DNA of 64,000 nucleotides. Origin: Marinobacter sp. DY40_1A1. GTDB lineage: Bacteria > Pseudomonadota > Gammaproteobacteria > Pseudomonadales > Oleiphilaceae. This document shows, one piece after another, positions 40,399 through 49,692 of the stretch. The notes beneath the pieces are model-generated. The model made no database searches, had not been told where the DNA came from, and saw only the letters and a list, made by a program, of their open reading frames with translations. The translations under genes were made by a program, and so were the position numbers. The stretch covers positions 310,001 to 374,000 of the forward strand of contig NZ_VCHA01000002.1 in assembly GCF_016597815.1 (NCBI RefSeq). Direction: 5' to 3'. Position 1 is the stretch's first letter. Each line of letters starts with the position of its first letter.

Positions 40399-40548
40399 AA
40401 GCTCTCCGGTTGTGTAACCCAGTGATACTCTTTGTTGACACTCATGGGTGACGATCGCCAGCAATTCTCTTTGGGCAACTCACTGTGCCCGGCTGAAAAT
40501 GTACCACATCAGTGCCTCAGTGCAGGAAAAGAACCTAGCCTTATAACG

Positions 40549-40576
40549 AAAAAAAGGCAGCCGAAGCTGCCTTTTT
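40549..40576 (-). terminator. Intrinsic terminator after the cold-shock gene
   Basis: On the minus strand AAAAAGGCAGC-TTCG-GCTGCCTTTTT, an 11-base stem with a TTCG loop and a T-run, about 27 bases after the cold-shock stop codon. A-rich flanks could let it act from the other side too. Confidence 0.92.
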
Positions 40577-40603
40577 GGCGGTTACTACTCTATCCGAGTG
40601 GGA

Positions 40604-40810
40604 TTAGAGAGGAGTAACGTTTTCCGCCTGAGGACCTTTCTGGCCCTGGGTAACGGTGAACTCAACTTGCTGGCCTTCAGCCAGAGTCTTGAAACCGCCG
40701 CCCTGAATTGCGCTGTAGTGAACAAAAACGTCCGGGCCGCCTTCACGAGTGATAAAGCCAAAGCCTTTAGCTTCGTTGAAGAACTTAACAGTACCGGTAG
40801 TAGTAGACAT
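40604..40810 (-). CDS. CspA-family cold-shock protein
   Basis: A 68-residue single OB-fold RNA chaperone. RNP1 is KGFGFI and RNP2 [23 protein letters not shown] is the classical start. ATG 40810 follows AGGAAG at 9-10 bases. The 235 bases upstream, to the next gene, hold no open frame and could contain a long 5' leader, as in cspA genes, but no conserved cold box was recognised. A strong terminator closes the gene. Confidence 0.95.
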
Positions 40811-41045
40811 ACTTAAACTTCCTGAAATCAATCATATTAACTGCTGCCATTCACTGAATGTGAGTGGTCAGCGTTTTACGGAAATACAGAACTCGCGGAA
40901 TCAAAAACAGGACGGTGACTACTAACTGCGGAGTACGTCTTATTCATGAAATGCTTTGCTGAATCTTTCCTTCCAAAACACTCTACTACTGAATCACTGG
41001 CTTGCCAAGTAGATTTAAAATAAATCCTGTAGGTAGTCGTACCCA

Positions 41046-47710: not shown

Positions 47711-48115
47711 ATGGCAACACTGAAACACCAACTGACAAGCTTGCTGAACTTCCGGCCGCTGTGGCGCCTTGCCCTGCTGCTATCGGTAATTTCCATTGGC
47801 TTTCTGGCAACTACAAGCAGCAGCTACCCCATTCCTTCTGCTCCCAGCGACAAAGTGAACCATTTGATCGCGTTTATTGAGCTCACACTGGTTACGCGAC
47901 TGGCCTGGCCGGAGCTCCGTGCCACTTGGTACGCACCGGCCTTGCTGGCTTTCGGGTTTGGCATCGAGGCTGTTCAGGCCCTTCTTCCCTACCGCGACTT
48001 CTCGCTGGCAGACGTGGCTGCCGACGGCGTGGGAATACTGATCGGACTCCTGCCCTGGCCAGGCCTCCCCTCAAGCAACAAAAGAGACTTGAGAAATTCG
48101 CCCAATTCTGTGTGA
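47711..48115 (+). CDS. VanZ family membrane protein
   Basis: A 134-residue protein with about four hydrophobic helices. The VanZ pattern is SDKVNHLIAFIELTLV, then FGFGIEAVQALLPYRDFSLADVAAD, where Asp, His, Glu and Gln are conserved. VanZ-like proteins are of uncertain function; the namesake gives low teicoplanin resistance. Its stop codon overlaps the GacA-like palindrome upstream of the small RNA gene. Confidence 0.85.
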   Translation: MATLKHQLTSLLNFRPLWRLALLLSVISIGFLATTSSSYPIPSAPSDKVNHLIAFIELTLVTRLAWPELRATWYAPALLAFGFGIEAVQALLPYRDFSLADVAADGVGILIGLLPWPGLPSSNKRDLRNSPNSV

Positions 48116-48128
48116 GATATATCGCACA
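48111..48128. promoter_or_regulatory. GacA/UvrY-like upstream activating palindrome
   Basis: TGTGAGATATATCGCACA, an 18-base inverted repeat symmetric at all but one pair. The left half TGTGAG fits the known GacA/UvrY half-site TGT(A/G)AG; the right half CGCACA fits CTTACA less well. It lies about 170-190 bases before the predicted start of the CsrB-type RNA, the distance seen for csrB and rsmZ genes. It overlaps the vanZ stop codon. Confidence 0.6.
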
Positions 48129-48285
48129 AGTGTGTGCGATTTTGCAGCAATTGCTCGTGCGCACCCACTAAGGCCATCACCGGGAATTACTTAACATACT
48201 GATATAATTACACTTCAGTAATCTCTTTGGGAAAGCGCCAGACACAAGCGTGCACAGCTCACACATTTCCACACTCACCCGTTGC

Positions 48286-48291
48286 TATAGT
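48286..48291 (+). promoter_or_regulatory. Predicted -10 element of the CsrB-type RNA
   Basis: TATAGT lies seven bases before the first GGA hairpin of the RNA. No good -35 is present at the right spacing, as expected for a promoter that needs an activator. The start of transcription would be near 48298. Confidence 0.5.
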
Positions 48292-48297
48292 GGCTTC

Positions 48298-48526
48298 GTC
48301 AGGGATGACAAGGATAAGGACGACGCACTGGATGCACCCCGGCATGGAATGCAGGGAGAAGCAGGGAGAAGCAGGGATACCTGGCTTAGGGATAACTATT
48401 CGGATCGCTGGCTCGGAAGCCGGCACCACGGAGTGGCAAAAGGATTCGCAACACGGTTGTTGCACTCAGCGCAAGGATGCGCCGACCTGTTCCGGTAAAG
48501 GGCAGCCCGAGGGCTGCCCTTTTTTT
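48298..48526 (+). ncRNA. CsrB/RsmZ-type CsrA-sequestering small RNA
   Basis: About 229 bases with no credible gene. I count 14 GGA motifs between 48302 and 48478. Six sit in the loops of perfect short hairpins: GTCA-GGGA-TGAC (48298), GCA-CTGGA-TGC (48325), GCAT-GGA-ATGC (48342), GGCT-CGGA-AGCC (48410), CCAC-GGA-GTGG (48426) and GCGCA-AGGA-TGCGC (48469). A triplicated decamer GCAGGGAGAA/GCAGGGATAC (48351-48380) gives three more. GGA in a hairpin loop is the CsrA/RsmA binding site, so the RNA should titrate CsrA. A strong terminator ends it. The primary sequence is unlike csrB or rsmZ that I can recall, so assignment rests on architecture. mnmH follows. Confidence 0.88.
48500..48526 (+). terminator. 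Intrinsic terminator of the CsrB-type RNA
   Basis: GGGCAGCCC-GA-GGGCTGCCC followed by seven T: a perfect nine-base GC-rich stem. Confidence 0.96.
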
Positions 48527-48588
48527 CACGGAATTTTTGCACATCCGCTATACTGCTGCCTCATTCTGGCAAGCGATTGAGCCCTGAA

Positions 48589-49692
48589 ATGCCAAGCAGA
48601 CCCGACACTGAAGACTACCTCTCACTTTTCCTGAACGACACCCCGCTGATGGATGTCCGGGCACCAGTGGAGTTTGCCAGAGGCAGCTTCCCTGGCGCTA
48701 TAAACGCACCACTGATGAATGATGAAGAACGACACCGGGTCGGCATCTGCTACAAAGAGAAAGGGCAGGATGAAGCTATCCGGCTCGGCCACCAACTGGT
48801 TTCCGGGGATATCCAGGCTCAGCGCATTGAAACCTGGATGCGGTTTGTGGCAAATCATCCAGAAGGTTATCTGTTCTGCTTCCGTGGCGGCTTGAGATCC
48901 AGACTAACCCAACAATGGATCAAGGATACCGGCATTGAATACCCACTCGTAAAGGGCGGCTATAAAGCCTTACGCCGGTTCCTTATCGACAGCCTCGACG
49001 CGCTCATCAAATCCAGTGATTTTCGCATTATCAGTGGGCGCACAGGTACTGGCAAAACCCGTGTACTGCAGCAACTCCCCAACCCGGTAGATCTGGAAGG
49101 CCTGGCAAATCACCGGGGCTCCAGCTTTGGGCGGCAAGTAACTCCCCAGCCATCGCAAATAGATTTCGAAAATCGCCTGGCCATTGCCCTGTTGAAAGCG
49201 CGCCACCTGAAGGACGGCCCGATTTATCTGGAAGATGAAAGCCGCCTGGTTGGCCGCTGCGCCCTTCCCGAAGCACTGAAAGAGCGGATGGCCCGCACTC
49301 CCCTGCTCATTCTTGAGGAATCGCTGGAAGACCGCACCCGCATTATCCGGGAAGACTATGTCGAGCACATGGCCTCCAATTATATAAAAAGAGATGGCGA
49401 AGAAGCTGGCTGGCTGAACTTCCGTGATTACCTGCTGGGCTCGCTTGAACGCATTAGTAAACGACTGGGAGGCGAACGGTACCGCCAGCTGCGCAATGTT
49501 ATGGAGCAAGCGCTCGAGCAACAGGAACACAACGGCACCCTGGAAGGTCATAACGCCTGGATTCAGCCGCTGCTGCAGGATTACTATGATCCTATGTACG
49601 ATTACCAGCTTGGGCAAAAGAAGGGGGAAATCCTTGTTCGTGGGGATTCTCGCGCCTTGCTCAAGTGGGCTGCAGAAAAAACCCCGGCTTGA
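48589..49692 (+). CDS. mnmH: tRNA 2-selenouridine synthase
   Basis: MnmH (SelU) replaces sulfur by selenium in 2-thiouridine of tRNA anticodons, and also geranylates it. The 367 residues start with a rhodanese domain whose catalytic Cys97 is in YLFCFRGGLRS, the same number as in E. coli. The second part is a P-loop domain with GRTGTGKTRVLQQL and EDESRLVGR. ATG 48589 is chosen from similarity; the Shine-Dalgarno is weak. It needs selenophosphate, so a selD gene is expected elsewhere in the genome. Confidence 0.94.
   Translation: MPSRPDTEDYLSLFLNDTPLMDVRAPVEFARGSFPGAINAPLMNDEERHRVGICYKEKGQDEAIRLGHQLVSGDIQAQRIETWMRFVANHPEGYLFCFRGGLRSRLTQQWIKDTGIEYPLVKGGYKALRRFLIDSLDALIKSSDFRIISGRTGTGKTRVLQQLPNPVDLEGLANHRGSSFGRQVTPQPSQIDFENRLAIALLKARHLKDGPIYLEDESRLVGRCALPEALKERMARTPLLILEESLEDRTRIIREDYVEHMASNYIKRDGEEAGWLNFRDYLLGSLERISKRLGGERYRQLRNVMEQALEQQEHNGTLEGHNAWIQPLLQDYYDPMYDYQLGQKKGEILVRGDSRALLKWAAEKTPA

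Follow-up and report, generated by a model that had tools for sequence, protein, structure and literature searches.

A predicted CsrA-sequestering small RNA of the CsrB/RsmZ type between vanZ and mnmH in Marinobacter

Csr and Rsm RNAs compared with the Marinobacter locus

Carbon use, motility and biofilm growth of gammaproteobacteria are governed by the protein CsrA together with RNAs that antagonize it. One of these antagonists, CsrB, is an RNA of over 200 bases whose many GGA motifs lie both within and between its loops. The present analysis concerns a predicted RNA with this layout in Marinobacter sp. DY40_1A1, found between a vanZ-like gene and mnmH in a stretch of 64,000 nucleotides (the window; assembly GCF_016597815.1, contig NZ_VCHA01000002.1, positions 310,001 to 374,000). 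The RNA resembles CsrB (RF00018) in its many GGA in and between loops and in its length, although RF00018 itself gives no match. Judged from the sequences of this genome and its relatives, the locus very probably encodes a Gac-activated small RNA (sRNA) of about 229 bases that would sequester CsrA.

CsrB1 and CsrB2 of Shewanella are BarA/UvrY-dependent (PMC3171408), and in Pseudomonas aeruginosa the GacA sites lie at -75 for rsmY and at -196 for rsmZ (PMC4950607). Like Pseudomonas PrrB/RsmZ (RF00166) and RsmY, the predicted RNA combines GGA in hairpin loops with a GacA-type box, whose position at about -187 resembles that of the P. aeruginosa rsmZ site (PMC4950607). It differs from RsmY and RsmZ of Pseudomonas fluorescens SS101, which measure 118 and 133 bp with eight GGA each, in having about 229 bases and 14 GGA (PMC4353343). 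The neighbours also differ, being a vanZ-like gene and mnmH here and the fdxA/rpoS region for Pseudomonas rsmZ, as given in a figure legend (PMC4353343).

Precedents from marine gammaproteobacteria are CsrR1 and CsrR2 (PMC9788540), Aln1a-c (PMC5864184) and Pf1 (PMC9927453), Csr RNAs that were described singly. Compared by description, CsrR2 of Alcanivorax (PMC9788540) and Aln1a-c of Alteromonas (PMC5864184) are, like the RNA considered here, predicted CsrA sponges of a marine gammaproteobacterium; Aln1a-c differ in being three RNAs from one 404-base region. In Pf1 of Pseudoalteromonas fuliginea, CsrB-like function goes with little sequence similarity to Escherichia coli CsrB. Pf1 has 21 GGA and is backed by binding and knockout, and E. 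coli carrying it was examined by glycogen staining (PMC9927453); the Marinobacter RNA is predicted from sequence and is compared with it by description. The putative GacA box of Pf1, CGTGAGACATCTCTTACA, has its GTGAG half in common with the box found here and is close to the TGTGAGATATCTCTTACA form of three aligned sequences of the genus (PMC9927453). In the literature searched, titles and abstract openings describe no such RNA for Marinobacter, and an earlier computational prediction is possible; Table 2 of PMC5568370 includes no Marinobacter.

GGA content, conservation and hairpins

The vanZ-like gene (Pfam VanZ) stops at 48115 and the mnmH open reading frame starts with TTG at 48577 (first ATG at 48589), and both genes and the predicted RNA lie on the + strand. 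A preliminary description of this DNA, made from its letters and open reading frames, had reported about 229 bases with 14 GGA motifs in a gap of some 470 bases. Recounting agrees: the gap measures 461-473 bases, and positions 48298-48526 hold 229 bases and 14 GGA. None of 2000 dinucleotide shuffles of this 229-mer reaches 14 (mean 7.9, maximum 13), and a density of at least 12 GGA per ~190 bases occurs nowhere else on either strand of the 64-kb window. The predicted start at 48298 was deduced from the position of the -10 element and from the point at which conservation sets in.

When this genome and its relatives, 58 in all, were searched at the DNA level, 36 gave a match, 34 of them genomes of the genus including this one, and two through the terminator only. 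The alignment made from these has 33 rows, one from this genome and 32 from relatives; neither the terminator-only matches nor L035, a short form, were taken into it. At 12 of the 14 motif positions, GGA occupies the same columns in at least 29 rows. At the remaining positions, 48346 and 48442, it does so in 22 and 15 rows and lies within three columns in 32 and 33, respectively. Mean column identity is 0.949 for the 42 GGA columns compared with 0.819 for the other 155 columns of the RNA (p ~1e-7), with 27 and 35 invariant columns, respectively.

The hairpins were tested as a structure of eight helices drawn by hand from these same sequences. It is paired in 88.3% of the cells over the 33 rows, compared with 27-49% for slid versions. 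Two-sided changes were found at 10 stem pairs, against a mean of 4.8 in shuffled alignments, and 0 of 500 shuffles attain this number; because related rows share changes, this covariation statistic is supportive and is not a probability. Hairpins 3, 5 and 7 show such changes most clearly, and hairpins 1, 2 and 4 show none. RNAalifold, applied to the same alignment, returned much the same hairpins except hairpin 6, and 7 of its 34 pairs have two-sided changes. In the alignment of the vanZ-mnmH gap within the genus, to which the preliminary description had looked, the GGA positions are conserved and the hairpin stems covary; the six GGA hairpins that it reported are present. The RNA and its parts are as follows.

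48298..48526, + strand: predicted CsrA-sequestering small RNA with 14 GGA (from sequence, alignment and covariance model)
48298..48309, + strand: hairpin 1, GTCA-GGGA-TGAC; 87% of cells paired, 0 pairs with two-sided change
48325..48335, + strand: hairpin 2, GCA-CTGGA-TGC; 87% paired, 0 pairs with two-sided change
48338..48356, + strand: hairpin 3, CCC-G-GCAT-GGA-ATGC-A-GGG; 85% paired, 3 pairs changed on both sides
48359..48387, + strand: hairpin 4, AAGC/GCTT plus AGG/CCT; 100% paired, 0 two-sided changes
48407..48424, + strand: hairpin 5, GCTGGCT-CGGA-AGCCGGC; 99.5% paired, 2 pairs changed on both sides
48426..48436, + strand: hairpin 6, CCAC-GGA-GTGG; 71% paired, 1 two-sided pair (C-G to G-C, 5 rows)
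48448..48463, + strand: hairpin 7, GCAAC-ACGGTT-GTTGC, with no GGA in its loop in this genome; 93% paired, 3 two-sided pairs
48469..48482, + strand: hairpin 8, GCGCA-AGGA-TGCGC; 80% paired, 1 pair changed on both sides
48497..48526, + strand: intrinsic terminator, AAAGGGCAGCCC/GGGCTGCCCTTT then T7 (from fold and repeat analysis)

The GCAT-GGA-ATGC core of hairpin 3 occupies 48342-48352, and GGCT-CGGA-AGCC sits within hairpin 5. Hairpin 4 encloses the GGAs at 48365 and 48375 together with part of a duplicated decamer. A rival register for this hairpin, GAGGC/GCCTC, pairs in 80% of the cells over the 33 rows and not in this genome, and was rejected. The decamer, GCAGGGAGAA, had been called triplicated; two exact copies do stand at 48351-48370, and the supposed third at 48371-48380 (GCAGGGATAC) is identical at only 8 of 10 positions. 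It is present at least once in 6 of the 33 rows, and the exact tandem pair is found in the row of this genome only. The terminator and its T7 tail are present, and the terminator surpasses in strength what was first described, its stem being longer than the nine bases reported: the arms have 12 bases with a gap of 2, and 11 pairs form in the fold. By eye, the aligned rows carry a similar terminator-like element at the 3' end, with varied stem sequence. The folding energy of the RNA, terminator included, has a z-score of -2.84, and 1 of 200 shuffles is as low. The minimum-energy fold puts some GGAs in pairs; a single-sequence fold would not by itself prove the GGA-hairpin layout.

Promoter box, regulators and a second GGA-rich RNA

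Two elements were recognized upstream of the predicted start.

48286..48291, + strand: predicted -10 element TATAGT (TATAGT in 26 of 33 rows, TATATT in 5)
48111..48128, + strand: GacA/UvrY-type box TGTGAG-ATATAT-CGCACA, agreeing with the consensus at 9 of 12 letters and lying 187 bases upstream of the predicted start

The box was searched with the consensus TGTAAG-N6-CTTACA, in which 12 letters are scored, and reads TGTGAGATATATCGCACA in this genome. Of the 33 rows, 31 have a box with 9-11 of the 12 letters between -192 and -184, while 9-base position bins away from this interval hold a match of this grade in at most 2 of 33 rows. The evidence for this putative box is the near-fixed distance across rows and not the score in a single genome. 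Its first half overlaps the 3' end of the vanZ-like gene, an overlap that could contribute to the conservation of the box.

The regulators expected for such a system were sought in the same genome, which encodes CsrA, with a model score above the cut-off, UvrY/GacA, with 299.9 bits against a cut-off of 280, and a BarA/GacS-like hybrid kinase. The uvrY/gacA gene precedes the UvrC RNase H domain by ~1.2 kb, an arrangement that fits the usual uvrY-uvrC gene pair.

A covariance model, R1, was built from the 33 genus sequences. After the locus itself, the match that R1 ranks next in this genome, with 16.6 bits and E = 0.005, is a second GGA-rich element.

G000:C9:216419-216799 (L079 1300-920), minus strand: second GGA-rich RNA with 17 GGA (R1 match)

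The first 15 bases are common to both RNAs, and the second is preceded by a GacA-type box, TGTAGGAAATGTCTCACA, with 10 of 12 letters at -74. Its DNA is matched in 104 of 124 genus genomes, and box and length were surveyed in the best 30 loci of these 104, this genome included. A box of at least 8/12 letters stands at -74 in all 30 of these loci and reaches at least 9/12 in 27 of them; the number of GGA ranges from 8 to 19. Length to a terminator-like end varies from 133 to 256 in the 28 of the best 30 loci in which this end was found, which suggests that the second RNA gains and loses hairpin units. The only Rfam match at this place is to RsmZ and is not significant (14 bits, E = 0.55). A third R1 match in this genome covers 30 bases with 8.4 bits and E = 4.17, and G079 has a second R1 match of 22.9 bits.

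The boxes thus stand at about -187 and -74 here, compared with -196 and -75 for rsmZ and rsmY in P. aeruginosa, so that two RNAs unmatched by Rfam have an rsmZ-like and an rsmY-like promoter geometry in this genome. It is conceivable, though doubtful, that Marinobacter and its family possess a two-RNA Rsm system that kept the Pseudomonas rsmZ/rsmY promoter geometry and lost recognizable RNA sequence, and in which GGA hairpins come and go in the second RNA within one genus, its GGA number running from 8 to 19. Under this tentative proposal the RNAs would be diverged orthologs with the promoter as their surviving signature, and CsrA-titration capacity might be an evolving and countable trait.

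Several variant forms of the first RNA were observed. L065 (G094:C4:337850-338236, minus strand) consists of two tandem short copies of ~110 bases, each with its own terminator as judged by eye, in a genome that also has a full copy. L066, L067 and L068 (in G026, G103 and G125) are short forms beside mnmH in which 5' GGA hairpins are lost or replaced, and they match mainly in the 3' half, from CCACGGAGTGG to GCGCA-GGATGCGCC. Finally, G516:C7:6736-7222, from a family member, holds four partly overlapping R1 matches in ~490 bases, which suggests a tandem or enlarged RNA.

Distribution, alternative explanations and biological meaning

With the training sequences included in the counts, R1 matches 121 of the 124 genus genomes (108 of the 110 of good quality). 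At the level of the family it matches 153 of 163 genomes, which represent 14 of the 16 genera. Across the order 19 of 390 genomes match, all but one within the same family, the sole outsider being G247 (E = 6e-4, 19.8 bits); as 6 candidates were scored per genome, absence elsewhere in the order is weak. A DNA pattern derived from the alignment retrieved 62 stretches from a collection of genome contigs, 59 of them from Marinobacter. The other three, from Elusimicrobia, Streptomyces and Pseudonocardia, cover 19 model positions with 5.8-9.3 bits and look like chance.

The gene neighbourhood was compared in the 33 aligned loci and in the 59 named Marinobacter loci, two sets that overlap in genomes. 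The RNA is preceded by a vanZ-like gene of its own strand in 33/33 and 57/59 loci (the other 2 end first), and it is followed by mnmH, again in the same orientation, in 32/33 and 51/59 (the other 8 end within ~800 bases). The distance from the RNA to mnmH falls into two ranges, ~40-220 or ~750-870 bases, and amounts to ~10 kb in G020; this variability means that the RNA is not tied to mnmH. In loci L007-L031 and L034 the interval from the RNA to mnmH is ~0.75 kb longer than it is here.

These distances bear on the possibility that the element acts in cis, as a 5' leader or attenuator of mnmH and not as a free RNA, with transcription either ending at the terminator or continuing past it as CsrA dictates. 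Such a role is suggested by the end of the terminator 50 bases before the mnmH open reading frame, on the same strand, and by the frequency of mnmH downstream. However, in most of these loci mnmH begins ~750-870 bases off, and in G020 it is far away, without loss of the RNA; its terminator is strong, and a GacA-type box at about -187 suits Gac-activated sRNAs, so that a leader function is very improbable. Still less credible is a base-pairing sRNA of the Hfq type with incidental GGA content: the intergenic position, the conserved -10 element and the terminator with its T tail would fit one, but the GGA columns are conserved above the rest of the RNA and the GGA count exceeds that of every shuffle. 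A small protein encoded by the overlapping open frames 48227-48580 and 48250-48498 (117 and 82 codons) can practically be dismissed, as no open frame over the RNA is conserved, the three forward frames having a stop in 33, 30 and 31 of the 33 rows, frame-shifting gaps occur and the stems covary.

A Gac-activated, CsrA-sequestering RNA is also confronted with a number of unfavourable observations. Its stems show a small number of two-sided changes, some of which related rows share through common descent, and the covariation term of RNAalifold is small (-1.24 kcal/mol). Hairpin 1 loses its first pair in 11 of 33 rows, and hairpin 6 is the weakest and loosest of the eight helices. Of a promoter, only the -10 element is conserved: a convincing -35 element was not found, and a consensus promoter scan did not list the -10 either. 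Two of the 33 rows score 8/12 for the box, and in this genome alone its 9/12 is unremarkable, since 103 of 1000 shuffles of the 400 bases upstream score as high. The mean box score at single offsets is 5.5 at -186 and 4.8 at the next best, -40, a weak peak because the distance of the box shifts by a few bases between rows. The BarA/GacS-like hybrid kinase, for which BarA is the best model, scores 851.3 bits, below the cut-off of 890; its sCache_4 domain is above its own cut-off. R1 finds no match in the near-complete genus genomes G004 and G072, and in G026, G103 and G125 it matches mainly through the 3' half. The remaining genus genome without a match, G033, is incomplete.

The Rfam searches belong with these observations. 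At the gathering score and with strict filters, RF00018 (CsrB), for which the E. coli control matches, found none of 37 genus genomes. RF00166 (PrrB_RsmZ) equally found 0 of 37, in a search in which no named control passes the cut-off and the relative G055, from another family, does (84.2 bits). A permissive search of the locus with all 4227 Rfam families (E <= 10) gave six matches and no Csr family, the best being sbrA (E = 0.063) over the terminator; RsmY, RsmX and CsrC are not among the six. Standard family models may indeed miss this RNA, as the preliminary description had anticipated, and membership in the CsrB, PrrB/RsmZ or RsmY families is not borne out. Its designation as a CsrB/RsmZ-type regulatory RNA is supported as a functional likeness, suggested by GGA conservation, covariation, box and regulators, and not as membership in Rfam CsrB or PrrB_RsmZ. 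Since the features read from sequence, the predicted promoter excepted, match CsrB/RsmZ RNAs and the Rfam families do not, the predicted RNA would be an added example of a known RNA class.

Some Rfam matches outside the locus may be mentioned. The sole match at gathering level in the window is a cspA thermoregulator leader (40548-40890, minus strand, 89.4 bits). Two relatives from other families carry a sub-threshold CsrB match of 55.3 bits (L037/L038, G043:C77:71053-71498) and a clear RsmZ match of 84.2 bits (L039, G055:C2:338312-338448). R1 scores 14.4 bits in L037 and 5.2 bits in L039, and these loci are possible links between the Marinobacter RNA and the Rfam families.

The predicted CsrA-sequestering RNA could act as follows. 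Phosphorylated UvrY/GacA would bind the box at 48111-48128 and switch the RNA on, and the GGA hairpins are predicted to bind several CsrA dimers. The RNA would in this way titrate CsrA, messages repressed by CsrA would be freed, and translation of CsrA targets would rise.

In a metatranscriptome study, one of the nutrient-amended treatments is reported to have raised CsrA expression in Marinobacter sp. C18; a term search of that paper finds CsrA mentioned, and CsrB and sRNA not (PMC10516948). In view of this up-regulation, a handle on Csr control in the genus would be useful. A likely CsrA antagonist that is invisible to the Rfam CsrB and RsmZ models has now been placed in 121 of 124 genus genomes. 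Along with it come the box that likely activates it, a second partner RNA of variable length, and a covariance model whose reach extends to 14 of the 16 genera of the family.
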